Assembly (NCBI RefSeq): GCF_030296055.1
Contig: NZ_AP027370.1
Span: forward strand, 248,001-312,000
DNA from: Hydrogenimonas cancrithermarum
GTDB lineage: Bacteria; Campylobacterota; Campylobacteria; Campylobacterales; Hydrogenimonadaceae
Direction: 5' to 3'
Length of the DNA: 64,000 nucleotides
The notes beneath the pieces are model-generated. The model saw nothing but the letters and a program-made list of their open reading frames with translations. It was not told the DNA's origin and made no database searches. The position numbers and the translations under genes were made by a program. Positions 25,204-40,237 of the stretch are shown piece by piece. The first letter of the stretch is position 1; each line of letters begins with the position of its first letter.

Positions 25204-25243
25204 TTGTCAAAAAATTGTCAAAAAAATGGAAAGAACGTAAAAA
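25204..25243 (+). promoter_or_regulatory. Putative cas6-csm promoter with tandem TTGTCA boxes
   Basis: TTGTCA occurs at 25204 and 25215 (11 bp apart). The second is 17 bp from TAAAAA (25238-25243), giving a weak sigma70 promoter that would start transcription near 25250 and favours the cas6 ATG at 25261. A hairpin TGTCG-A5-CGACA lies just upstream (25182-25196). The spacing differs from the other island promoters, so it is not counted with them. Confidence 0.4.
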
Positions 25244-25260
25244 CCATGAAAAGGGGTGAA

Positions 25261-26100
25261 ATGCAATTAAAATGGCACAAAATCGATGTCGTGGCAGAGA
25301 CGGGGTACAAACCGCCGTTTTTCGCCGGCTCCATGCTTCGGGGTGCTTTGGGTGTGGCGCTCAAGCAGGTGGTCTGCATCAATCCGGCATATCGGTGCGA
25401 AGGCTGTTTCGCAGCAGAAAAATGCGTCTATTACGACTTTTACGAAAAGAAAAACGCGTTTCATTCCTATCGCATCGTCTCGTCCCTGGGGTCGGACCGG
25501 CTGAGGTTCGGTATCTATCTTTTCGAAGAAGCTGCGGACCGTCTTCCCTACGTTCTTTCGGCGATAAAAAAGGCGTTCGAAGAGAGTGGGCTCGGTAGGG
25601 AAAAAGAGCGTGTGAAGATCGCGTCGATCCGCATCGGCAACCGTCTCGTGTACGATGGCGAATCCTTCGCCTCCCTCGCCCACATCGAGCCGAGCGGACT
25701 GGATATCGGCACGCTCTCTTCCAAAGCCCATCTGACATTCAACCTGCCGCTTCGCATGAAATCGGAAAACAGACTGGCCAGGGAGGTTTCGCTGCCGACA
25801 CTCATATCGGGCATACACGCCAGGTACCGCGCCATCAAAGGACTATCTCCCCAAAAACTCGGCTATAAGATACGCGGCGAGATCACGAGCCAACGAATGC
25901 GCCATCTCGATCTCTACCGCTATTCCAACCGCCAGAGAACGCGGATGAAGCTCGGGGGCCTCATCGGCGAGATGACGCTGGAGGGCCTCGACAAACAGAC
26001 GGCGGCGTATCTCAAGATCGGCGAGATCATCGGTGCGGGAAAGCAGACGGTGTTCGGGTTGGGGGATTATAGATTAAACGTTATGGAGGGAAACAGATGA
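25261..26100 (+). CDS. cas6: CRISPR pre-crRNA endoribonuclease Cas6
   Basis: Cleaves the CRISPR transcript within each repeat, leaving an 8-nt 5' handle (here expected ATTGAAAC). The 279-residue RAMP protein has the C-terminal Cas6 ferredoxin fold with RYSNRQRTRMKLGGLIG and the glycine-rich loop GEIIGAGKQTVFGLGDY. An N-terminal PPFFAGSMLRGALG resembles the RAMP G-rich strand. A CEGCFAAEKCVYY segment (~residues 40-52) may bind metal. The start at 25261 has AGGGGTGA upstream; in-frame ATGs at 25246 and 25204 lack one. Its end overlaps cas10. Confidence 0.9.
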   Translation: MQLKWHKIDVVAETGYKPPFFAGSMLRGALGVALKQVVCINPAYRCEGCFAAEKCVYYDFYEKKNAFHSYRIVSSLGSDRLRFGIYLFEEAADRLPYVLSAIKKAFEESGLGREKERVKIASIRIGNRLVYDGESFASLAHIEPSGLDIGTLSSKAHLTFNLPLRMKSENRLAREVSLPTLISGIHARYRAIKGLSPQKLGYKIRGEITSQRMRHLDLYRYSNRQRTRMKLGGLIGEMTLEGLDKQTAAYLKIGEIIGAGKQTVFGLGDYRLNVMEGNR

Positions 26101-28364
26101 GACAAGTCGACGAAATAGCGCTCGCCGGGCTTTTGCACGATATCGGAAAGTTCGGGCAGAGGGCGGAGAGTTACGCTTTGCGGGAAGATGCTTACAGAAA
26201 AAACGATTACAAATATACGCATGCCGCATATACGGCCCAGATTCTCCATGAGCTCGCATTCAACCTCGGGGAGGAGATGAGCGATACAGCGGCGATGCAT
26301 CACAACCCGAACAACGATCTGCAATGGATCATCGCCGCCGCGGACAGAATGGCAAGCGGATTCGAGCGGGAAGCTTTCGACGAGTACAACGAGAACACGC
26401 CGAACGAAGATTTTCGTTCGCAGCGCCTTTGGTATCTGTTCGACGACTCGAAACGTTATAGGATAGACACTCTCAATGTCGACAATATCTTTCCCCAGGA
26501 AGGCGAGGCCCAAAAAGGCGAATACGACGCGTTATGGGGAAAGTTCGTCGACGATATGAGGGAGATCAGGGAAAAAGGGAGCGCTTCGAGCGACGCTTTT
26601 ACCATAGACTACCTGCTCAAGCTCCATACGAGTTTCATTCCTTCCTCCACGACCTTCAAAACGGCGGGTTACACGCCGGTCAAGGCCAACATTCCTCTCT
26701 ACGACCACAGCAGGGCCACCGCCATTTTCTCCGCCGCGCTGTACAAACTGTTGAACGACGAGAACGATCGGAATATTCTCGACTACTACCAAAACCGTCC
26801 CGCTGACATCGAACGACAGGATCTACTCTATATCAGCGGAGACTTTTTTGGTATTCAAAACTTCATATTTTCCGATCTGCCTACGGCCAAAGCCGCGAAA
26901 CTGCTGCGCGCCAAATCGGCCTATATCCAGCTGTTGACCGTCGTCGTCGCGCTGAATATCGTCGAGCGTCTGGGTCTGAGCTATCAAAGTATCGTCTCGA
27001 CTCATGCGGGCAAATTCGAGATATTGGGCATCCATACCCCGAAAACCATCGAAACACTCTCCGAAATCCAGAAAGAGCTGGACGACTTTTTCATAGAAAA
27101 CTATTTCGGTACGACCGGTATCGGCATCAGCCATGTGCCGTGTGCTTTGGCGGACTTCATCGAAAAAGGGCGCTATCGGAACGATTTGAGAAAACGAATC
27201 GCCTCGGCGGTGGAAGAGCGAAAGTACAGAAAATTCGATCTTGCCGAAAGAGACCCCCTTCTTTCGATCGACAAAGACCTGAACAATGCGAATCTGTGCC
27301 AGCTCTGCGGCAAAAAACGGGGCGAAAAACGTACGGGAGACTATATCGCGTGCGAACAGTGCGAAGTCTTCGTGCGTATCGGCCGGGAGTTGACGACGAA
27401 AGATTATTTGACGATTTCGAAAGGCTCGGGTCAGATACCGATCTTCGGAGCCTACCATCTCAACTTTTCCGATGAACCGAAACGTTTCGACAACGCCGTG
27501 GCGATCTACGACATCTCCAACGATGAAGAGTTCCGGGGATTCGCCAAATGGGAGCTTCGATCGTATGTGAAGTTTTCCGAATATGAACAGCGCATCGAAG
27601 AATTGGGAGAGTTGGCGATGGAGAGCTGCGGCGGTGGAGATGTAGGTGTCGAAGCCCTGATGGCCCTCAAGGGTGACGTGGACAGCATGGGAAAATATAT
27701 CCGAGAATCCGACGTGACGCTCTCTTTCGCACGCTACAACTTCTTCGCGCGGATGACGGACTATTTTTTCAGCCTCTATGCCTCGCATCTGATGGAGACG
27801 AAGTATCCCGACCTCTATACGGTTTTCGCGGGAGGGGACGATATTTTCGTCCTGGGTGCGTGGGACGAAACCATAGCTTTCGCGAAGAGGCTGAGAGAGG
27901 ATTTCATGCGATTCGCCGATGGCAGCCCATTGACCTTTTCGGTGGGCATGGTGATGACCAAATCGAACAAGCCGGTCAATTTCATCGCCCGGTACGCCGA
28001 GCACGAATTGGAAAAAGCGAAGGAGTGTGATGGCAAAAACGCCATATCGCTTTTCGACGAAACGGTCAAATGGGAAGACTACCTCGACGATATGGGACTG
28101 CATGAAGAACTCGACAAAATCGAAGAGATCAATACGGCCTTTTTGTATCGCCTGATGGAGTTCGTGGCGATGAGCAGACTTGTGAAAGAGAAAAATTCGA
28201 TCGAGGATACGATCTGGAAATCGAAATTTGCCTACACCGTGCGGCGCAATATGGAAAACATGCCACAAGAGTTGTTCGTTGCACTCGATCGGATGATCGA
28301 ACAGTATCCCAAGGAGAGTAAAATGATTTTGAGCGAATACATCTACAAAAGGAGAAAACGATGA
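26097..28364 (+). CDS. csm1: Type III-A Cas10/Csm1, HD nuclease and cyclase
   Basis: Largest subunit of the Csm complex, 755 residues. The N-terminal HD nuclease domain is intact (LLHDIGKFGQR at ~residues 10-20, then HHNPNNDLQ). A zinc-binding CQLCGKKRG ... CEQCEVF separates the two Palm domains near residue 400. The second Palm carries the cyclase signature FAGGDDIFVLG (~575-585), so it should make cyclic oligoadenylates from ATP and cut ssDNA when target RNA is bound. ATGA overlaps join it to cas6 and csm2. Confidence 0.97.
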   Translation: MRQVDEIALAGLLHDIGKFGQRAESYALREDAYRKNDYKYTHAAYTAQILHELAFNLGEEMSDTAAMHHNPNNDLQWIIAAADRMASGFEREAFDEYNENTPNEDFRSQRLWYLFDDSKRYRIDTLNVDNIFPQEGEAQKGEYDALWGKFVDDMREIREKGSASSDAFTIDYLLKLHTSFIPSSTTFKTAGYTPVKANIPLYDHSRATAIFSAALYKLLNDENDRNILDYYQNRPADIERQDLLYISGDFFGIQNFIFSDLPTAKAAKLLRAKSAYIQLLTVVVALNIVERLGLSYQSIVSTHAGKFEILGIHTPKTIETLSEIQKELDDFFIENYFGTTGIGISHVPCALADFIEKGRYRNDLRKRIASAVEERKYRKFDLAERDPLLSIDKDLNNANLCQLCGKKRGEKRTGDYIACEQCEVFVRIGRELTTKDYLTISKGSGQIPIFGAYHLNFSDEPKRFDNAVAIYDISNDEEFRGFAKWELRSYVKFSEYEQRIEELGELAMESCGGGDVGVEALMALKGDVDSMGKYIRESDVTLSFARYNFFARMTDYFFSLYASHLMETKYPDLYTVFAGGDDIFVLGAWDETIAFAKRLREDFMRFADGSPLTFSVGMVMTKSNKPVNFIARYAEHELEKAKECDGKNAISLFDETVKWEDYLDDMGLHEELDKIEEINTAFLYRLMEFVAMSRLVKEKNSIEDTIWKSKFAYTVRRNMENMPQELFVALDRMIEQYPKESKMILSEYIYKRRKR

Positions 28365-28744
28365 AACAGATTATTCTCGATTACAAGAAGGACCCGGAAC
28401 TCTTCAACGAAACAGCAAGAGAATGGGCAACCAAAATATGCGGTCGAAACGATAAGTGTGAAGTCAAATCGACACAGCTTAGAAACTTCTACGATAAAGT
28501 TTTGGAGCTATACGATCGAAGTGAAATAAAAAAAGAGCCTTTCGAAGAAGTGCTGCCTTTCGTCAAGATGCTCAATTCCAAGGTAGAGTATGCATCGCAT
28601 CGTAAAAGCGAGGGGAAACCACTCATCAACAAAGCTTTTGCGGAGATGATGGGACAATGTATTTCTCAGGTGGATTCACCCGAAAAACTGAGAGTTTTCA
28701 AACTCTTTTTCGAAGCGGTTATCGGTTTTTACAAAGGCAAGTGA
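28361..28744 (+). CDS. csm2: Csm complex small subunit Csm2
   Basis: A 127-residue helical protein, the small (Cas11-type) subunit that lines the crRNA-target duplex. Csm2 features are the ATKICGRNDKCEVKSTQLRNF segment, where the KSTQLR helix contacts the backbone, and a C-terminal LRVFKLFFEAVIGFYKG. Its ATG overlaps the csm1 stop. Length and order between csm1 and csm3 support the call. Confidence 0.92.
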   Translation: MKQIILDYKKDPELFNETAREWATKICGRNDKCEVKSTQLRNFYDKVLELYDRSEIKKEPFEEVLPFVKMLNSKVEYASHRKSEGKPLINKAFAEMMGQCISQVDSPEKLRVFKLFFEAVIGFYKGK

Positions 28745-28772
28745 AAAAATAATTTATGGAAAGGAAATCATC

Positions 28773-29408
28773 ATGAACATCGTATCTTACAAGGGACAAA
28801 TCGAAGTATTAAGCGGTCTTCACATCGGTGGCGGAGACGATACAATGAAAATCGGGGGTATCGACAACAGTGTAATCAAAAATGTCAACACCGACGAGCC
28901 ATACATTCCTGGAAGCAGTTTGAAGGGCAAAATGCGCTCACTTTTGGAATGGGATCTAAAACTGGTAGGTAATGGCGACGGGGGACCGTTCAGCTCGAAA
29001 TTTCTCGACAACATCCTCAATTCCGATGATAAAGAGATGGCAAAAAATCTTCTGAAACTTTTTGGCGATCCTGAACCGGAAAGTCCTTACGGCATTACTC
29101 GTATCAGCGTCGGAGACTGCCCATTGAACGAAAAATCCAAAGTTATCAAATACAGTGAGGCCAAATTCGAAAATTCGATCGACCGTAAAAAAGGCACGGC
29201 AAAAAACCCTCGCCAAACAGAACGTGTGCCTGCTGGCGTGAAATTCGACTTCGATATTCGTGTAAAAATACTCGAGGAAGATGACGAAGGGGCATTGCTG
29301 GCACTTCTTGAAAGAGGTATGCAGCTTGTAGAGCAAGACTATCTTGGCGGAAGCGGAAGCCGGGGTTATGGCCGAATAGCTTTCGTAGATGTACAAAAAG
29401 AGGCTTAA
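28773..29408 (+). CDS. csm3: Csm3, backbone RAMP and target-RNA nuclease
   Basis: Repeated backbone subunit (211 residues) that cuts target RNA every six nucleotides. The catalytic aspartate expected near residue 33 is D31 in IGGIDNSVIKN. The RAMP signatures PYIPGSSLKGKMRS and the C-terminal LGGSGSRGYGRI are intact. A Lys-rich insert after SIDRKKGTAKNP is typical. It is spaced 28 nt from csm2 with a GGAAAGG ribosome-binding site. Confidence 0.96.
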   Translation: MNIVSYKGQIEVLSGLHIGGGDDTMKIGGIDNSVIKNVNTDEPYIPGSSLKGKMRSLLEWDLKLVGNGDGGPFSSKFLDNILNSDDKEMAKNLLKLFGDPEPESPYGITRISVGDCPLNEKSKVIKYSEAKFENSIDRKKGTAKNPRQTERVPAGVKFDFDIRVKILEEDDEGALLALLERGMQLVEQDYLGGSGSRGYGRIAFVDVQKEA

Positions 29409-29411
29409 ATC

Positions 29412-30296
29412 ATGCAACTTTACAAAGCCAAAATCGATCCCGTATCGACCCTGGCTACATCACTGAGGGGAGATACCCTCTTTGGACAGATATGTTGGGC
29501 AATCCATCAGCTTTTCGGAAAAGAGAGACTCGAAAAGCTACTGGAGGATTACGACGAAAATCCATTTATGGTGGTAAGTGATGCGATGGCGGTCGGGCAT
29601 TTGCCAAAACCCCATATGCCATCCTCTTTTTTGGGCGAAGATCCCGAGGAGAAAAAGTCCAACCGCAAAAAAAGATGGCTTACGCGCGAAGATCTTCTAA
29701 AGGGCAATTATAGCGCTGCTAAAAACGATGAAGAAGCCGGTTTTTTGCAATATGATATTTCGACGATGCACAACTCCCTCAACTACAAAACGTTTCGAAC
29801 GGGAAAAGAAAGATTCGCTCCATTTGGCGTGATCGAAACGGTTGTGGGAGAAAGAGAAGTTTATCTTCTTTTAGACGAGAACAGAATAGGGGAAGAGGAA
29901 GCCCTACAGACTCTTGTATGGGTAGGCCATTATGGTTTCGGCAAAGATGCGTCGACGGGAAAAGGACGCTTTGAGGTGAGTGGTTTTTCATCAGTGAATT
30001 TCGATAGTAAATCGAAAATCTATATGACGCTCGCTCCCATAGTCCTGGAGGGAATCGAGAGCCACAAAATCTATTACGAGCCTTTTACCCGTTTTGGAAA
30101 GCACGGTTTTACAAGATCCAAAGGTAATGTTTTCAAAAAACCTGTTCTTATGGCCGATACAGGGTGCGTTCTTTTTTTCGATACAGACGAACCCAAAAGC
30201 TATACTGGTCGCGGGATACGAGGTGTTTCTACCCGATATACCGATACGGTTCATCAAGGATACGCTATCGTCGTTCCGATCAAGGAGGTACTATGA
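29412..30296 (+). CDS. csm4: Csm4, 5'-handle-binding RAMP
   Basis: A 294-residue RAMP subunit that binds the crRNA 5' handle and contacts Cas10. Visible features are the N-terminal RGDTLFGQICWAIHQLFG, the PHMPSSFLGE stretch, the HNSLNYKTFRTG loop and the GFGKDASTGKGRFEV glycine-rich strand. It starts 3 nt after csm3, and its stop overlaps the csm5 ATG. Confidence 0.94.
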   Translation: MQLYKAKIDPVSTLATSLRGDTLFGQICWAIHQLFGKERLEKLLEDYDENPFMVVSDAMAVGHLPKPHMPSSFLGEDPEEKKSNRKKRWLTREDLLKGNYSAAKNDEEAGFLQYDISTMHNSLNYKTFRTGKERFAPFGVIETVVGEREVYLLLDENRIGEEEALQTLVWVGHYGFGKDASTGKGRFEVSGFSSVNFDSKSKIYMTLAPIVLEGIESHKIYYEPFTRFGKHGFTRSKGNVFKKPVLMADTGCVLFFDTDEPKSYTGRGIRGVSTRYTDTVHQGYAIVVPIKEVL

Positions 30297-31594
30297 AACC
30301 GACGAAAAATCGCTATGCCATCAGATTGAGAACATTGAGCCCATTGCATATCGGTTCGGGAACGGATTTTATGCCCGGCAGTTACATCATTGATGGAAAA
30401 ATGCTGTACGAGTTCGACACGGTAGACTTTTACCATGAGCTTAGCCCACAATTGCAACGAGCATTTTCAATGAAAGCCACGACCGCGTATACTTTAAAAA
30501 ATTTTTTGGACGAGCACAAAGAGACGGTGAAAAAAGTTTCGATGCGCTCTTTGCATGTGACGAGTGAGATTGCCCGGACATATGAAAAACAGTACAACAA
30601 AGATGGCACTCCCAACAAAAACCGACTTCAAATTGCAAAAACGGCAACAACGGAGTCTATCAAAATTCCCTATGTGCCAGGAAGTTCTTTCAAGGGTGTT
30701 ATCGATACTGCACTCGAAATCTTTACACCAAAAGCTGGCAATGAGGTACGGCAAAACCTCCTGGTGTCCGACCTGGTATCCATCGACGCAAAAAGTTTTT
30801 GTGGCATTGCATATCGTCGGCATAAAACTGGTGAGCGAGAAGGCAAGGGTATACCATTGATGGTGGAGGCATTGGAACCGGAAAGCGTTTTTGCTGGCGT
30901 GATAGAAAGTGATCGCCGTGGTGAAAGCGAGAAAATTTTCTCATGGAAAGAGATCGCTCAGTCACTTGAAAATTTTGCACGACAAGCCGATGAAAAAAGT
31001 TTTTTGTCTTATAAGAAGATAGCGCCAAAAGGGAGTATCGTATTTCGCATGGGACGATTTAGCGGACAGGAATTCACTGCTATCGGACTTACAAAAAAAC
31101 CGGTAACTCATTCCCTGATGAAAATGAATAACGGCACATTGCTTCCTTTCGGCTGGGTTGCGCTCGAGTATATCGAGGGAAAAGAACTCGAAACTCTTAT
31201 GGAAACTTATAAAGAATATGTTGAACAGAAAACGAAAAAGATTGTTGAGCGACGCTCGTCATTGGTCGACGAGCGGAAAAGACGAGAGCAAGAGGAGGAG
31301 GAGCGTAAACGAAAACTTGAAACAGAACGACAGGAAGAAGAAAAGAAAAAAGCGGCCGAAGTGGCCAGACTTGCTTCTCTCTCCCCCGTCGATCGTCTTC
31401 TCGAAGAACACGATATCCCGACACTTATCCGCATGATGCAAAACAGTGAAATCGAAGATTACGAAAAGATCAAAATCGAACTCGCTCAAAAAATCAAGAA
31501 AGAACTCAAGAAAACCCCGAAAACCTGGGAAAAGGCCAAACAAAAAGCGCTCAAGCGAAAAGAGTTTATTCAAAAAATTCTGGGAGAATACTGA
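30293..31594 (+). CDS. csm5: Csm5 with long charged C-terminal extension
   Basis: RAMP subunit at the crRNA 3' end, 433 residues. RAMP motifs are RLRTLSPLHIGSGTDFMPG, YVPGSSFKGVIDTALE and the late SLMKMNNGTLLPFGW. After ~residue 305 comes an unusual ~125-residue tail: a very charged predicted coiled coil (Glu/Arg/Lys runs around 320-355) followed by a compact helical end. Csm5 is often 350-400 residues, so the tail may recruit the 3'-trimming nucleases or another partner (inference). The ATG at 30293 overlaps csm4's stop; TGATG joins the next gene. Confidence 0.93.
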   Translation: MKPTKNRYAIRLRTLSPLHIGSGTDFMPGSYIIDGKMLYEFDTVDFYHELSPQLQRAFSMKATTAYTLKNFLDEHKETVKKVSMRSLHVTSEIARTYEKQYNKDGTPNKNRLQIAKTATTESIKIPYVPGSSFKGVIDTALEIFTPKAGNEVRQNLLVSDLVSIDAKSFCGIAYRRHKTGEREGKGIPLMVEALEPESVFAGVIESDRRGESEKIFSWKEIAQSLENFARQADEKSFLSYKKIAPKGSIVFRMGRFSGQEFTAIGLTKKPVTHSLMKMNNGTLLPFGWVALEYIEGKELETLMETYKEYVEQKTKKIVERRSSLVDERKRREQEEEERKRKLETERQEEEKKKAAEVARLASLSPVDRLLEEHDIPTLIRMMQNSEIEDYEKIKIELAQKIKKELKKTPKTWEKAKQKALKRKEFIQKILGEY

Positions 31595-32829
31595 TGACAA
31601 AAGTTCTTATCAGTCTTCTGGGCACAGGCAAACAGGCGAAAGGGGATTTTTCGAAAAACGAATACCTGACCACCGACTATGTCGTTAAAGGAAAAACGTA
31701 CCCCCAAAAGAAATTCTCTGCCGCCGCGCTGATAGAGCACTTCGGGATCGAGCGCGTCCATTTCGTAGGCACCGCCTCATCCATGTGGGATGCATTGGCG
31801 GAGAGGTTCGGTGACGACGATGAATACACTCTCGAATTGATAGAGAAAAAAGAGAAAGAGGCCATCACACAAAAGGATCTCGGAAATCTCGAAGCGATGA
31901 TAGACGCCACGTTGGAGTCGTCCGGCTCACGCTGTCATATCGTGCAGGAGGGTGAAAACGACGAAGAGCTCTGGACGATCGCCGAGAAATTCATTTCGAT
32001 TATGAAGTCGCTCCATCCCAGCGATGAAGTCTATCTCGATATCACCCACCTGTTCCGCTCCGTCGCCGTAATGAGTGTGGTAATGGCGGAGCTTGGGAAA
32101 GTGCTCCATGATCTGCGATTCGTCGGTATCTATTACGCGATGCTCAAACATGGAGAGCCTTCGACGATCGTTGATTTGACGCTCTTTTTCGAACTGCTCG
32201 ACTGGGCGCGGGCGATTCGATCGCTCAAACACTACGGCAACGCCTACGAAATTCTCGATCTCGTAGAACGAACCGAAGAGTCCAAAGAAATCAAAAACAC
32301 TTTTGCCGATTTCGCCAATGCATTGGGCATGTCGAACATGGCGGCTCTGCAAAGAAGCGTCAAGGTCCTAAAAGGCAAACTGGCACTCTTTGAACAAAGC
32401 AGCCACCGACTGGTACCATTTGTGGCGAAAGAGCTGCGAGATTTCGTCGAATACTTCCACATAGAAGACTTGGCGGTTTTTCAGTTCGAACTGGCACGTT
32501 GGTATGCCGAAAACCGAAACTATGCGATGGCCTATATCACGCTTGCGGAAGCGGCCGTGACGGCACTTTGTGAACGGGAAGGGATCGATCCGGTGGGAAA
32601 GGAAAACCGCGAAAGAGCGAAAGCTTTATTCTACGAAATGGGAGACTGGAAAACAAGCGACAAGTCGAGCCAAAAAATCGCAAAAACTTTTCACATGGTC
32701 AATGCTATTCGCAACGGCATCGCCCATAAACTTCCTCCCGAAGCGATGAAGAAAAACTCCTCTCCCAAAGACAGCGTGGCAAATATCGCAAACTATATTG
32801 ATACTTTGTCGAAACTATTGAAAAAATGA
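31594..32829 (+). CDS. csx1: CARF-HEPN effector (Csx1/Csx2, TIGR02221-like)
   Basis: A 411-residue ancillary ribonuclease of type III systems. The N-terminal CARF domain (KVLISLLGTGK, and LDITHLFRSVAV near residue 148, the DxTH motif) should bind cyclic oligoadenylate. The C-terminal HEPN domain carries the RNase motif RNGIAH (R-x4-H, ~residue 372). On activation it would degrade RNA non-specifically. It is coupled to csm5 by TGATG and is last in the csm operon. A second, diverged CARF-HEPN protein is at 44372. Confidence 0.9.
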   Translation: MTKVLISLLGTGKQAKGDFSKNEYLTTDYVVKGKTYPQKKFSAAALIEHFGIERVHFVGTASSMWDALAERFGDDDEYTLELIEKKEKEAITQKDLGNLEAMIDATLESSGSRCHIVQEGENDEELWTIAEKFISIMKSLHPSDEVYLDITHLFRSVAVMSVVMAELGKVLHDLRFVGIYYAMLKHGEPSTIVDLTLFFELLDWARAIRSLKHYGNAYEILDLVERTEESKEIKNTFADFANALGMSNMAALQRSVKVLKGKLALFEQSSHRLVPFVAKELRDFVEYFHIEDLAVFQFELARWYAENRNYAMAYITLAEAAVTALCEREGIDPVGKENRERAKALFYEMGDWKTSDKSSQKIAKTFHMVNAIRNGIAHKLPPEAMKKNSSPKDSVANIANYIDTLSKLLKK

Positions 32830-33598: not shown

Positions 33599-33739
33599 AT
33601 GAGAGACTTCCTCTTTGATATCTCGACCTTCACCATCTCCTGCGAATATCGCCGTCAAAACGGCGAATCCGCCATATCGAAAGATTTCCACGAAAACGGA
33701 AAGTATCAATACACCGAAGGAGCAGAGCGTGTCGCCTGA
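33599..33739 (+). CDS. 46-residue small ORF overlapping the rmuC start
   Basis: Begins at an ATG 9 nt after an AAAGGA site, directly downstream of the island-type promoter. It reads MRDFLFDISTFTISCEYRR and ends in a TGA 11 nt inside rmuC. It has no recognisable domain and no signal peptide. It may be a genuine small protein or a leader peptide whose translation is coupled to rmuC. Confidence 0.4.
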   Translation: MRDFLFDISTFTISCEYRRQNGESAISKDFHENGKYQYTEGAERVA

Positions 33740-35624
33740 AATCATCATCGCTGCGGCGCTGTTTTCGATCGTCGTCATGGGTGCGGCGCTATGGCTGAAA
33801 AAGAGCATCTCATCCGGTACCGACGCCTCTTTGATGGAGGAGCTCAGAGAGAAACGGGAGAAATCCGCGCAGGTGCCTCTGCTGCAGGAGAGCGTACGAA
33901 AACTCGATACCGAAAAAAATGCCCTCTTGGAAAAAATAGAGGAATTGAGCAATTCACTTGCCGCGCGGGATATCGTGATTGCCAGAAAATCGGAGGAGGA
34001 GAAGAACCGTATCGCCGAAATCGGGAAGAGTCGAGAAAAGATCGCGGTACTTCGTGAAAATGTCGAGACGCTGACGAAGCGGACGGAACGCCAAAAAGAG
34101 ATGCTGGCCGAACTCGAAGGTGAGAACAAACAGTGCCGGGATTCCTTGGCCCATCTGGAAAAAGCCCATGCTGCGGAAAAGGGGCTGATCGAAGAACGTC
34201 TCGCCGAATTGCGGGAAAATCTCGAGGATGCGAGTCGGCAGATACACGCGTTGGAAGCCTCGAAAGAGGTGGTTCGACAGGAGAGTCAGGAAAAATCGGA
34301 AGAGATCGCCAGGTACGAAGCCGATCTTTCGGCGATGGAAAAGAATCTCGAAGAGCTGCGCGCTCAGGTGAAAAAGGCGGAAGAAAAGATCGGCACACTG
34401 AACGCGTCGCTCGACAATCTCATCGAAGAGAACACCCGCCTCAAAGAGGAGCGCTCCTCCATGGCGGCACAGCTCGCCGCTCAGCGTGAGAACAACGAAA
34501 AACTGCAAAAAGAGTTCCAAGCCCAGAGCGAACAGCTCGAACTCAAACTCGGCGAAATCATGCAAAAACATCTCGAAGCGAAGATGAAAAGATTCGACGA
34601 AGCTTCCTTGAAATCTATCGATAGCGTTCTCAAGCCTTTCAGGGAAAACCTCGAAACATTCAGAAAACGGGTGGAGGAGTCCCAGGAGGAGAGCACGAAA
34701 AAATTTGCCGCCCTGTCACACGAAATCGAGCGTCTGGCGCAGGCGGGCATGAACATCGGCAAGGAGGCCGAAAACCTCACCAACGCGCTGAAGGGCAAAA
34801 AGCAGACCCAAGGCAGCTGGGGTGAGATGATCTTGGAGAGCGTGCTCGAATACTCCGGTCTCGTGAAAGGGGAGCATTACGATACCCAGCACAGTTACCG
34901 CGACGACGAGGGGGAACTCAAAAGGCCCGATGTCATCGTCCGACTTCCGCAAAACAGGGCGATCGTCATCGATTCGAAAGTCTCCCTCAACGACTACGAT
35001 CGCTATATTCGAGCGGAGACCGACGAAGAGCGAACCGTCGCCGCCAAAAACGTCGTCAGATCCTTTCGCGGCCACATCGACAATCTCGTCTCCAAGGACT
35101 ACGCGCATTATTGCAGCGGGACGCTTCAGTACGTCTTCATGTTCATCCCCATCGAAGGGGCTTTCGCTCTGGCTGTGCGGGAAGATCCGAATCTGTATGA
35201 ATATGCGCTCAAAAAGCACATCGTCATGGTCAACCCCTCCACGCTCATCGTCACGCTGCGCACGATCTATCTCTACTGGCAGAGCGAGCAGTCGAGCGGA
35301 CTAGCGGCGAAGATGTTCGAGGAGGCGGGAAAACTCTACGACAAAATGGCGGGATTCGTCGATACCTTCAACCGCGTCGGAAAACAGATCGACAGCGCCG
35401 CCGCCTCATTCAACAAGGCGAAATCCCAGCTGACGGACGGAAGGGGCAACGTCCTGGGGCGCATCGAACACCTGAAGCGTCTCGGGGCCAAAACCACTAA
35501 AACGATCGCAGCGACGAAAACGGAGTTTCAGTCCTACAATCCCGACGAACCAGAGGTCGAAGTCGTCGAAAAGGAAGCCCTCTGCGCATCGGCGTCGAAC
35601 ATCGCGGAGTCGAAACGAAAATGA
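33729..35624 (+). CDS. rmuC: DNA recombination protein RmuC
   Basis: A 631-residue protein with an N-terminal membrane anchor (IIIAAALFSIVVMGAALWL), ~290 residues of continuous coiled coil, and the RmuC nuclease-like domain from ~residue 340: GSWGEMILESVLEYSGL, then PDVIVRLPQNRAIVIDSKVSL, whose Asp/Lys pattern is PD-(D/E)xK-like. RmuC limits inversions and acts in restart of damaged replication forks. The GTG start at 33729 has GAAGGAG upstream; the open frame extends further back only through the small ORF region. Expression probably comes from the island promoter at 33539. Confidence 0.93.
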   Translation: MSPEIIIAAALFSIVVMGAALWLKKSISSGTDASLMEELREKREKSAQVPLLQESVRKLDTEKNALLEKIEELSNSLAARDIVIARKSEEEKNRIAEIGKSREKIAVLRENVETLTKRTERQKEMLAELEGENKQCRDSLAHLEKAHAAEKGLIEERLAELRENLEDASRQIHALEASKEVVRQESQEKSEEIARYEADLSAMEKNLEELRAQVKKAEEKIGTLNASLDNLIEENTRLKEERSSMAAQLAAQRENNEKLQKEFQAQSEQLELKLGEIMQKHLEAKMKRFDEASLKSIDSVLKPFRENLETFRKRVEESQEESTKKFAALSHEIERLAQAGMNIGKEAENLTNALKGKKQTQGSWGEMILESVLEYSGLVKGEHYDTQHSYRDDEGELKRPDVIVRLPQNRAIVIDSKVSLNDYDRYIRAETDEERTVAAKNVVRSFRGHIDNLVSKDYAHYCSGTLQYVFMFIPIEGAFALAVREDPNLYEYALKKHIVMVNPSTLIVTLRTIYLYWQSEQSSGLAAKMFEEAGKLYDKMAGFVDTFNRVGKQIDSAAASFNKAKSQLTDGRGNVLGRIEHLKRLGAKTTKTIAATKTEFQSYNPDEPEVEVVEKEALCASASNIAESKRK

Positions 35625-35681
35625 CAGGATTCGACACCGCGATCTTCTACAATGAAACAAATCCTAAAACAGGAGGCTCCC

Positions 35682-35951
35682 ATGGCACGGTTTCTCGTAG
35701 CATATGACATCAAAGACGATAAACGGCGTACCAGAACTGCGAAAGTGGTCTACGCCTACGCGATGGGAGGCCAGAAAAGCGCGCTAGAAACGGTACTCGA
35801 ACCCCGTGAACTCTCCCAAATCCTCCGGGAGGTCCGTCGGGAAATCGACGCGGAAGAGGACCGCGTACACCTGATAAAGGTGATGCCCAAAGCCATTCTT
35901 TTCGGCCGTGCCAAACAACTCGATTTCGAGGAGGGGGTCATTGTCATATGA
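35682..35951 (+). CDS. cas2: Cas2 (first copy, upstream of cas1)
   Basis: An 89-residue ferredoxin-fold adaptation protein. It starts MARFLVAYDIKDDKRRTRTA, with the Cas2 Asp at residue 9, after a perfect AGGAGG ribosome-binding site. It is more divergent than the second Cas2 at 37047: its central region (GGQKSALETVLEPRELSQIL) is recognisable but the C-terminus lacks the usual dimer strand pattern. Its stop overlaps the cas1 ATG. Confidence 0.85.
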   Translation: MARFLVAYDIKDDKRRTRTAKVVYAYAMGGQKSALETVLEPRELSQILREVRREIDAEEDRVHLIKVMPKAILFGRAKQLDFEEGVIVI

Positions 35952-36814
35952 AAACCGTCATCGTCGACCGCCGGGAGGTGGCACTGGAGATCAGAAAGAG
36001 CGGTATCGTCGTCGACGGCCAACACATCCCGTTTCGGTTAGTCGATCTTTTGGTGCTCTGCGGCGATATATCCTTGAGCACGAAAACGCTGATCGCCCTT
36101 TCCAGGGAACGAATTCCTCTAATCGCCGTCTCGAAGAATAATCGGGACTTTTCTCTTACACTGCCGATGGAGGCGAAAAACTCGGAACTCAGGATGCGGC
36201 AGTACGACACCGCTTCGCGCCGGCGCATCGAGTATGCCAGGTACTACCTGGAGCGCAAAATAAAGACCCATGTCGAGCATCTGGCGAGCACCGGCACGGC
36301 ACTCGATTTCGCGATATGGAAATCGAAAATAGACAATGCCGAGACCGTCCCGGAGCTGCTTGGGGTGGAGGGGAGCTTTTCCAGACTCTACTTCAATCAC
36401 TTTTTCAAGCTTTTGCCTTCGCATCTGCATAAAGGCAAGCGTTCCAAGCGCCCTCCGCTCGATCCGGTCAACGCCATCCTCTCCTATCTCTACACCTTCG
36501 GCTACCACCTGATCGCCTCCCGGCTCGTCATGTACGGGTTCGACGCATCGATCGGGTATCTGCACGAATCGTTTCGATCCCATTTCGCATTGGCGTCGGA
36601 TATGATGGAGTGTTTCAGGGCGGATACCAACAAAAAGACGGTCGAATTGTTCGATGACGGGCTTCTTACGGCGGACGACTTTAGTAAAAAAGGGGCCGTC
36701 TATTTGCGAAGCGAAAGCAGAAAACGCTTTTGGAAAGAGATCAAACCCTTCATCGACGAACTGACGCACGATGTCGATGACGAGATCGCGCTGTTGAGAA
36801 TGGCCATATCGTGA
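35948..36814 (+). CDS. cas1: Cas1 integrase
   Basis: Spacer integrase of 288 residues. The N-terminal beta domain spans residues 1-75. The helical catalytic domain has the three metal ligands in standard spacing: E141 in GVEGSFSRLYF, H206 in GYLHESFRSHF, and D218/E221 in ASDMMECFR. It is full length and flanked by overlapping genes on both sides (ATGA with cas2, GTGA with the Cas1-N paralogue), so the four-gene cassette is translated as one unit just upstream of the array. Confidence 0.96.
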   Translation: MKTVIVDRREVALEIRKSGIVVDGQHIPFRLVDLLVLCGDISLSTKTLIALSRERIPLIAVSKNNRDFSLTLPMEAKNSELRMRQYDTASRRRIEYARYYLERKIKTHVEHLASTGTALDFAIWKSKIDNAETVPELLGVEGSFSRLYFNHFFKLLPSHLHKGKRSKRPPLDPVNAILSYLYTFGYHLIASRLVMYGFDASIGYLHESFRSHFALASDMMECFRADTNKKTVELFDDGLLTADDFSKKGAVYLRSESRKRFWKEIKPFIDELTHDVDDEIALLRMAIS

Positions 36815-37050
36815 AACGCACGCTTGTCGTCAAAGAGCCCAAAGCGAAACTGATCGTCAAGGAGTCGTCGATCGAGATTTTGACTTTCTACGAGCGCCAA
36901 TATGTCGGTTTCGAACAGATCAGGGCCTTTTATCTGCACCAGGATATCGATGTGGGGATCAAGGATGTTTTGACTCTATCGAAGATGTTTCCTGTCTATT
37001 TCATCGACAAACGGGGCTATATCCTCGCAAAGATCTGTAGAAAACGATGA
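36811..37050 (+). CDS. Standalone Cas1 N-terminal-domain paralogue
   Basis: A 79-residue protein that aligns end to end with the N-terminal beta domain of the adjacent Cas1: FEQIRAFYLHQDIDVGIKDV matches Cas1 FRLVDLLVLCGDISLSTKTL, and FPVYFIDKRGYILA matches IPLIAVSKNNRDFS. It has none of the catalytic helical domain. It is not a disrupted gene: the frame is intact, it starts at a GTG overlapping the Cas1 stop, and its own stop overlaps the ATG of the second cas2. It may modify the Cas1-Cas2 complex, for example as an alternative dimer interface (inference). Confidence 0.75.
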   Translation: MKRTLVVKEPKAKLIVKESSIEILTFYERQYVGFEQIRAFYLHQDIDVGIKDVLTLSKMFPVYFIDKRGYILAKICRKR

Positions 37051-37325
37051 GCACCCATACCGCCGATTACGTCATCAGCTACGACATCTCCGACAGCAAG
37101 CGCCTCGGCAGGTTGGCAAGGCGTCTCGAAAAGCTCGCCATCCGCATCCAATACTCCGTTTTTTACGCCCCGTCAGTGACACAGGATGGACTTTTCGATA
37201 TAATGGAAACCATAAACGACATCATCGAACCCGAAGAGGACGACGTGAGAATCTACACGGTCGTCGATGTGGGAAAGACGCTCGGCCAGGCGATAAAACT
37301 GGACGAAGCGACGCTTTTGACATGA
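37047..37325 (+). CDS. cas2: Cas2 (second copy, next to the leader)
   Basis: A 92-residue canonical Cas2. It has DYVISYDISDSKRLGRLARR, with the conserved Asp at residue 13, the IRIQYSVFYAP strand and the DDVRIYTVVD C-terminal strand. It is translated from an ATG overlapping the Cas1-N gene's stop and ends 144 nt before the first repeat. Two Cas2 paralogues on either side of Cas1 is unusual. Confidence 0.93.
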   Translation: MSTHTADYVISYDISDSKRLGRLARRLEKLAIRIQYSVFYAPSVTQDGLFDIMETINDIIEPEEDDVRIYTVVDVGKTLGQAIKLDEATLLT

Positions 37326-37469
37326 AAGTTTCGTTTAAGGTGATGTCCGACCGAATTTTGGGGGTTTTGAAGGTGTGTAAAGCCCGTTTTGGAACGTCAA
37401 AGAATGAATTAAGTTCACGACATTTTCGCAAAAGCCCTGAAATACGATATTTCACAACCCGATGTTGCT
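37326..37469 (+). promoter_or_regulatory. CRISPR leader
   Basis: The 144 bp between cas2 and the first repeat contain no gene. The repeat at the far end of the array is degenerate, so this side is the leader where new spacers are inserted and transcription starts. No clear promoter hexamers were recognised; the segment ends GATGTTGCT at the first repeat. Confidence 0.75.
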
Positions 37470-39979
37470 ATTACGATCAGACCCGATTTGAAGGGGATTG
37501 AAACTTCAAGCGGTATGTTGTTGCGCCCTGTTTAATTACGATCAGACCCGATTTGAAGGGGATTGAAACAATTACTGGTTTATCATGATGGTAAACCGTG
37601 TAAGATTACGATCAGACCCGATTTGAAGGGGATTGAAACGTAATATGGAGCTTCTCGCCTTTGGCGGGCTCTACAATTACGATCAGACCCGATTTGAAGG
37701 GGATTGAAACTTAGTACAAGATTTCTATTATCGTCTCTCCAAATAGATTACGATCAGACCCGATTTGAAGGGGATTGAAACGTTACCTTTTTCCCCGAAG
37801 GTGTAATAACAACTTCTAATTACGATCAGACCCGATTTGAAGGGGATTGAAACAAAGCCCAAAGACCCTATAGGAGAGCGATAGGATTACGATCAGACCC
37901 GATTTGAAGGGGATTGAAACCGACATCAGCAGTTTTCTCGACAGCCCCAAGAGATTACGATCAGACCCGATTTGAAGGGGATTGAAACTTAGTTTCATAC
38001 GCCCTAACAGCTCGATACGATTACGATCAGACCCGATTTGAAGGGGATTGAAACGTTGATAATCGTACGGCAGCGTGACAGATGAACCGTATTACGATCA
38101 GACCCGATTTGAAGGGGATTGAAACCTACAACGTGGAGTTGGTTTCTATGTCGGTCAAGTATTACGATCAGACCCGATTTGAAGGGGATTGAAACTTATA
38201 TTACCATTATCATCAGCCCACAAATCCCATTACGATCAGACCCGATTTGAAGGGGATTGAAACAAATTACATCCAACTTTTTTTCGCCATATGAATGATT
38301 ACGATCAGACCCGATTTGAAGGGGATTGAAACTCCTTAGAATGGTATATCATCATCGAAGTCACTTATTACGATCAGACCCGATTTGAAGGGGATTGAAA
38401 CACACATACAAAATTCTTTCTTATTGATTTGAAATTACGATCAGACCCGATTTGAAGGGGATTGAAACAGGAAACGGGGTATGACTTTTCGGTAGAAATA
38501 GGATTACGATCAGACCCGATTTGAAGGGGATTGAAACCCATGTAATCGCTTCCATGTTCAAAATGATATTACGATCAGACCCGATTTGAAGGGGATTGAA
38601 ACGTTATAACTACGATTATGAAGTCAATCATTTTTATTACGATCAGACCCGATTTGAAGGGGATTGAAACTTATTTCTATAAGCTTCTTTGAATCGGTTG
38701 AATTACGATCAGACCCGATTTGAAGGGGATTGAAACTGAGAGTCCACCAATGCTATGGTTCGTTTATAGATTACGATCAGACCCGATTTGAAGGGGATTG
38801 AAACTTACAACGATATTATTCGTCTCTTCATGGTAGTATATTACGATCAGACCCGATTTGAAGGGGATTGAAACTTCTTTTCAGCTATGTTTTTTATCTC
38901 ATATGCTTTATTACGATCAGACCCGATTTGAAGGGGATTGAAACTGCGTGTGACGTGCGGTTGTGTTAGCTGTAACTTCCATTACGATCAGACCCGATTT
39001 GAAGGGGATTGAAACGCTCGTACCTCTGTCTTTTTCATTGTGCTTCCCTATTACGATCAGACCCGATTTGAAGGGGATTGAAACGGTATATCCGCTTCGG
39101 TCTATCATACTCACTTAAATTACGATCAGACCCGATTTGAAGGGGATTGAAACTTTCATCTGAGCCCCTTGAAGTGAAATGTGAATTACGATCAGACCCG
39201 ATTTGAAGGGGATTGAAACAAATTACCCGCTACCATAGCAAGGTTATTGATTACGATCAGACCCGATTTGAAGGGGATTGAAACTTACGTATTACGTTAC
39301 GGCATTTACGTTGAGATTTAAATTACGATCAGACCCGATTTGAAGGGGATTGAAACCCGATAGTTATTTCGGCTATAACTACGATTATGAATTACGATCA
39401 GACCCGATTTGAAGGGGATTGAAACATAGTTAAAGCCTGAATGTATTACGTAGGAAGAGAATTACGATCAGACCCGATTTGAAGGGGATTGAAACCGATA
39501 GACTGAAGCTTGTTAAGTACATCAAGGGCATTACGATCAGACCCGATTTGAAGGGGATTGAAACGAATACATTCTTCCTCGTTTATCGAATTTCCAGACA
39601 AAGATTACGATCAGACCCGATTTGAAGGGGATTGAAACGGTTCTTCATACCCCTGTGGCATGAGATTGTCAATTACGATCAGACCCGATTTGAAGGGGAT
39701 TGAAACCCCGTTGAATTTATGATTACGTATCACGTTACGATTACGATCAGACCCGATTTGAAGGGGATTGAAACCGACATACGTTCGATATCGTCACGCT
39801 CCTCATACATTACGATCAGACCCGATTTGAAGGGGATTGAAACTTTCATCTGAATCCCTTTGAAGTGAAATGTGATTGTTATTACGATCAGACCCGATTT
39901 GAAGGGGATTGAAACCTTTAGGGCTTGTACGCGTAATTAGAACCTCGAATTACGATCAGACCCGATTTGAAGGGGATTG
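37470..39979 (+). CRISPR. Type III-A CRISPR array, 37 repeats and 36 spacers
   Basis: A 35-bp repeat begins ATTACGATCAGACCCG and ends GAAGGGGATTGAAAC; its last eight bases, ATTGAAAC, give the expected 5' handle. By eye all 36 full repeats are identical. Repeat 37 (39949-39979) keeps the first 31 bases and then changes, so it is the old, leader-distal end. Spacers are 30-39 bp and AT-rich. Three pairs are related: spacers 17 (38603) and 28 (39357) overlap by 17 bp, 27 (39285) and 33 (39707) overlap by 17 bp with one mismatch, and 25 (39154) and 35 (39844) are near-identical. Transcription should be on the plus strand from the adaptation genes. Confidence 0.98.
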
Positions 39980-40237
39980 GTAAAGATGTGGCAAGAGAAA
40001 TCCGGGCGTCTCCGATGTTCGCTTCGCTCACATATCCGGATCGCCGTGCGGAGCTACGAAAGCCGAGCAGTTGGCTTTCGCTTCACGCTACTCTTCGAAA
40101 ATCCCGAGCCCAGACTTCCTGCCACATTGATGCCGGATGTGAATGGTTCGATGATAGGAAAGCCGACTGGACGTGCCGATGAAATGCTGCAGAGAATCAA
40201 ATCGCAGAAAAACACACAGATCGTGACGAATCAATAG
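39980..40237 (+). pseudogene. Decayed vWA-gene fragment at the array's distal end
   Basis: Directly after the degenerate last repeat. Bases ~40088-40170 translate to LFENPEPRLPATLMPDVNGS followed by MIGKP, clearly homologous to LFENPDPRLPVALVLDVSGS in the intact vWA gene at 41695. The rest of the vWA domain is missing. Upstream is a perfect 8-bp inverted repeat (CGAAAGCC 40057-40064, GGCTTTCG 40073-40080). The open frame runs in from the last repeat and ends before the ATPase gene; I regard it as a relic, not a gene. Confidence 0.7.

Follow-up and report, generated by a model that had tools for sequence, protein, structure and literature searches.

A conserved CRISPR adaptation cassette with two Cas2 paralogues and a predicted stand-alone Cas1 N-terminal domain in Hydrogenimonas cancrithermarum and related bacteria

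We analyzed a 64,000-nt stretch of the Hydrogenimonas cancrithermarum genome (assembly GCF_030296055.1, contig NZ_AP027370.1, positions 248,001 to 312,000; hereafter the window). At 35682-37325 of its forward strand, the window carries four intact ORFs in the order cas2a, cas1, mini and cas2b (Table 1), of which mini is predicted to encode a complete Cas1 N-terminal domain and not a Cas1 integrase. The parts of this cassette are of known kinds and their arrangement is new; no description of the gene or of the cassette was found in the open-licence literature searched.

Genomic context of the cassette

The four genes are joined by three 4-nt start/stop overlaps (ATGA, GTGA and ATGA, in order), so that the gene order and coupling given in a preliminary description of this DNA were confirmed. 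An AGGAGG site is located just 5′ of the cas2a start, and another possible in-frame ATG for this gene is found at 35652. The cas1 product has both Cas1 domains and keeps the catalytic residues Glu141, His206 and Asp218/Glu221, which are invariant in 15 relatives. Both cas2 products scored above the curated cut-off of the Cas2 profile and carry the aspartate of the N-terminal YDI motif. The spacers of the array downstream are 30-39 nt long (mean 33.9, SD 2.1). Upstream of the cassette, NCBIfam matches identified csm1 to csm5, as in type III-A systems, together with a gene for a CARF protein and a Cas6-like gene, the latter matching below its curated cut-off. Therefore, the four-gene cassette serves a type III-A system as its adaptation module; csm genes also adjoin related cassettes. 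No cas4 was seen in the window's cassette. An rmuC gene (33615-35624) lies between the csm operon and the cassette, and rmuC was also found near a Nautiliaceae cassette (L082). A second, conventional CRISPR locus in the same genome (L008; G000:C1:1038000-1053000) has apparent cas4, cas2 and cas1 genes and no mini.

Table 1 Features of the window discussed in the text.
Feature	Position	Strand	Evidence
Type III-A effector operon: Cas6-like, csm1-csm5, TM1812-family CARF protein	25204..32829	+	NCBIfam
cas2a, first Cas2 paralogue, GQKSALE type, 89 aa	35682..35951	+	Pfam CRISPR_Cas2, E 4.1e-12; own clade, SH-aLRT 99
cas1, full length, 288 aa	35948..36814	+	Pfam Cas_Cas1, E 1e-50
mini (mini-Cas1), predicted stand-alone Cas1 N-terminal beta domain, 79 aa, GTG start	36811..37050	+	AlphaFold2, Foldseek, VIA-align, conservation
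cas2b, second Cas2 paralogue, 92 aa, canonical R.Q.S motif	37047..37325	+	Pfam CRISPR_Cas2, E 7.4e-16; own clade, SH-aLRT 97
Leader region, cas2b to first repeat, about 145 nt	37326..37469	+	Inferred by position; sequence, repeat map
CRISPR array, 37 repeats of 35 nt	37470..39983	+	Repeat map
Gene of unknown family (fifth gene), 117 aa	42513..42866	+	Profile from relatives including the window member; alignment

Identity of the mini protein

Pfam and NCBIfam, which recognize both Cas2s and Cas1, gave no match for mini, and a direct BLASTP comparison of mini with the neighbouring Cas1 detected no similarity. Profile methods nevertheless uncovered a real relationship. PADLOC Cas1 profiles matched five of 16 members of the mini family (best E 8.4e-5), a mini profile matched one partner Cas1 at its N-terminus (E 2.3e-4), and a profile-profile alignment placed residues 2-70 of mini on residues 1-65 of Cas1 (E 8e-4, with an hhalign probability of just 24%). 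The AlphaFold2 model of mini, built from a 16-sequence input, had a pLDDT of 95. When this model was searched with Foldseek, the best 50 matches were all Cas1 or complexes containing Cas1. Superposition on Cas1 N-terminal domains using VIA-align gave a best Z score of 11.4 (rmsd 2.2) over 79 of 79 residues, and the end-to-end alignment claimed in the preliminary description thus holds for the predicted fold. In an alignment to a read-through Cas1-linker-mini sequence from locus L015, designed as a stand-in for a complex, minis were placed on the Cas1 N-terminal domain. The modelled protein has the N-terminal beta-sandwich of Cas1 and ends with this domain, lacking the helical catalytic domain with its Glu, His and Asp residues. 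Together, the family profiles and the predicted fold identify mini as a complete Cas1 N-terminal domain.

A glycine in the final hairpin of the Cas1 N-terminal domain is present in 36 of 37 outside Cas1s and in 2 of 47 partner Cas1s, a contrast that may reflect sampling since the outside set is rich in Clostridia. The same glycine occurs in 35 of 37 minis (count read off the alignment). Such a reciprocal pattern would be expected if part of the role of the ancestral domain had moved to mini.

In several loci (L010, L013, L014, L017, L018, L020, L041, L044 and L046), the first plausible mini start is located about 80-90 nt further 5′ than usual, within the 3′ end of cas1. It often follows an AAGGA-like site and would lengthen the N-terminus by a charged segment of about 25-28 residues.

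Distribution, history and selection

A search of 399 genomes at the level of the order gave mini matches in 27. The match in one genome (G084, E 7.5e-4) was rejected as not being a real gene, its frame containing four stops. The remaining 26 minis were intact and every one of them is adjoined by cas2a, cas1 and cas2b. Therefore, the association of mini with Cas1 and Cas2 is not due to chance. At least two of these 26 loci have a broken cas1 gene: in L010 (G036), it is cut short beside an IS21-like transposase gene, and in L043 (G354), it is split into several frames. In both loci, mini and cas2b are intact.

A scan of genome contigs with mini alone as query found nothing. A contig scan with a Cas1 alignment, covering 84,980 species, yielded 80 loci. 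The Cas1 clade of the window was cut at locus 43, where the E value of 2e-35 is followed by a sharp drop to 1e-28. The 43 cassettes of this clade are essentially restricted to Campylobacterota, with two from genomes titled Gracilibacteria. One of these two (L057) likely represents mis-binning, since its Cas1 is 99% identical to one from the window's own order. The four-gene order was found in 33 of the 43 cassettes, and the other ten lack mini alone. cas2a is present in all 43 and cas2b in 42, the missing one falling past a contig end. No mini was found in any of the 37 other Cas1 loci of the scan. Two further searches, run without a positive control, found none in 299 genomes belonging to a different phylum or in 12 genomes that carry other Cas1s. 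Nothing closely related to the window's Cas1 was found in plasmid, phage and viral collections.

A minimum of six changes in mini presence was required on the Cas1 tree, and mini occurs in every deep branch. The simplest account of this pattern would be an ancestral presence of mini in the clade, followed by about six clean losses. In several of the losses, cas1 runs directly into cas2b. These independent losses argue that mini is accessory rather than obligatory. As the Cas2 pair was kept and arrays are present in such loci (27 repeats in L087), mini is not essential for integration.

Where mini is present, it is maintained by selection. In pairs with unsaturated synonymous sites, the dN/dS of mini was 0.01 (L015/L080), 0.10 (L076/L077), 0.18 (L021/L057) and 0.21 (L044/L046), within the range of cas1 and cas2. 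These ratios show purifying selection on mini. At larger distances, sequence change is usually faster in mini than in Cas1 and Cas2 (e.g. 44% versus 74% identity in L021/L064). This faster divergence, seen in most pairs, together with the absence of mini from ten of 43 cassettes, could suggest a decaying and functionless remnant of a cas1 duplication. However, the frame is intact and its position fixed in 33 cassettes, the fold is confidently predicted, and dN/dS is far below one. We rejected the remnant on the last ground and regard it as extremely improbable. The preliminary description had taken the small gene to be selected rather than decaying, and had named beforehand a lack of conservation, a dN/dS near one and the lack of a Cas1-like fold as results that would speak against it; none of the three was observed.

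Cas2a and Cas2b form two separate, well-supported clades (Table 1). The conserved motifs of Cas2a are GQKSAlE and DkiNII, while Cas2b has the canonical R.Q.S.F and DD.RIY. Because the two paralogues group separately, the Cas2 duplication predates the spread of the cassette. Both were found in all 42 cassettes that are complete at that end. Such constant retention of two unlike Cas2s would be best explained by a Cas2 heterodimer or by two complexes with separate tasks. A second dual-Cas2 arrangement was observed in type III loci of Nitrosomonas and Methylobacter (L097, L108 and L115), where RT-Cas1 is followed by two unlike cas2 genes. Like the cassette described here, these loci have two cas2 genes beside one cas1. 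In contrast, their Cas1 carries a fused reverse transcriptase, both cas2 genes lie downstream of cas1, and a search for mini in them found none.

Possible roles of mini in spacer integration

The canonical Cas1-Cas2 integrase consists of four Cas1 and two Cas2 subunits. The cassettes described here differ in encoding two Cas2 paralogues each, as well as a separate Cas1 N-terminal domain. Structures of type II-A complexes show that Cas2 extends a sheet of the Cas1 N-terminal domain with its C-terminal strand, that Cas1 forms asymmetric dimers, and that Csn2 binds to a surface formed by Cas1 N-terminal domains (PMC6620040). The contact between the Cas1 N-terminal domain and Cas2 that the preliminary description mentioned therefore has a published basis. 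Given these contacts, three roles are conceivable for an isolated N-terminal domain, namely pairing with Cas1, capturing the tail of a Cas2 and docking a partner. The type II-A system resembles the one proposed here: a small extra protein joins Cas1-Cas2, and both Cas2 and Csn2 contact the Cas1 N-terminal domain (PMC6620040). However, Csn2 is unrelated to Cas1, whereas the extra protein here is predicted to be a Cas1 domain.

We give most weight, tentatively, to an asymmetric Cas1-Cas2 integrase built on a Cas2 heterodimer, in which mini would serve as an accessory Cas1-like subunit without catalytic activity; this reading falls a little short of an even chance. A Cas2a-Cas2b heterodimer would lie at the centre of the integrase. 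The beta domain of mini would stand in for that of a non-catalytic Cas1 protomer and would pair with the Cas1 N-terminal domain, accept the C-terminal strand of one Cas2, or do both. An integrase with two unlike ends could then fix which prespacer end integrates on the leader side. A more specific version, which we consider doubtful, places a full Cas1 dimer on one side of the Cas2a-Cas2b heterodimer and a heterodimer of Cas1 and mini on the opposite side, so that integration would have a built-in direction in a type III system that lacks Cas4. Since Cas1 retains its own N-terminal domain, an ordinary Cas1 homodimer is also possible in this cassette. For the type I-C Cas4-Cas1-Cas2 complex, asymmetry was likewise proposed as the source of spacer orientation (PMC6519985). 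There, however, the asymmetry comes from Cas4, a nuclease with no counterpart seen in the window's cassette, and an asymmetric integrase in the present system is a proposal.

Two serious rivals assign mini a different role. In the first, mini is a brake: as a decoy of the Cas1 N-terminal domain, it would cap Cas1 or the tail of Cas2, restrict the number of integrases that assemble and guard against self-acquisition. A bare interaction domain would be a typical shape for a decoy, and the missing catalytic domain, the dispensability of mini and its usually faster evolution than its neighbours are consistent with such a role. However, the translational coupling of mini between cas1 and cas2b suggests similar amounts of these proteins rather than separate regulation, and loci without mini do not differ obviously from the others in array size or spacer length. 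We regard a brake as unlikely.

The second rival, also improbable in our estimate, is that mini is an adaptor on Cas1 or Cas2b that docks a further factor, which could be a nuclease, the product of a fifth gene or the type III effector. The binding of Csn2 to the surface of Cas1 N-terminal domains in type II-A (PMC6620040) provides a precedent, and another conserved gene is indeed found near many of these cassettes. Relatives of this fifth gene stand directly after cas2b in many cassettes (L011, L012, L016, L036, L037, L040, L064, L087 and others), and the window copy is displaced beyond the array. The gene encodes about 120 aa with the motif YPEIxYxGRxxGVxxxGxLYDK. It had no Pfam or NCBIfam match above cut-off, and its model (pLDDT 77) resembled no PDB structure convincingly (best Z 2.8). 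However, it occurs with or without mini, adjoining the mini-less cassettes L051, L060, L072, L079 and L087, so the two genes are not a tied pair, and a docking partner for mini is not known. Among other neighbours, DarT/macrodomain (DarG-like) toxin-antitoxin genes adjoin cassettes L036, L040/L048 and L043.

The preliminary description had also suggested that mini, through heterodimers or a second Cas2-containing complex, could alter spacer size, spacer orientation or the choice between RNA and DNA. Spacers beside mini-less cassettes have means of 34.3-35.4 nt (SD 0.75-1.1), and those of most mini-positive arrays are 33-36 nt (SD 1-2.7), with close relatives matching the mini-less arrays. The mini-less arrays thus fall within the range of the mini-positive ones, and control of spacer length by mini was rejected as no effect was visible in the comparison. 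RVT_1 was absent from the whole genome, while three control genomes were positive, and the adaptation module accordingly lacks the reverse transcriptase domain of RT-Cas1 systems. The use of RNA is therefore unlikely. Taken as a single reading, a mini that sets spacer length or permits RNA use is very improbable.

The cassette bears on an open question, namely how the spacer end that enters first is chosen by integrases that lack PAM or Cas4 guidance. The question matters most in type III systems, in which the function of a spacer depends on its orientation. With its two Cas2 paralogues and a predicted bare Cas1 dimerization domain that has been lost naturally in some lineages, this conserved cassette offers a direct test of end choice. 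For annotators, mini is a family that is missing from present collections. The four-gene set is old and has been kept by natural selection in sea-vent and related bacteria.
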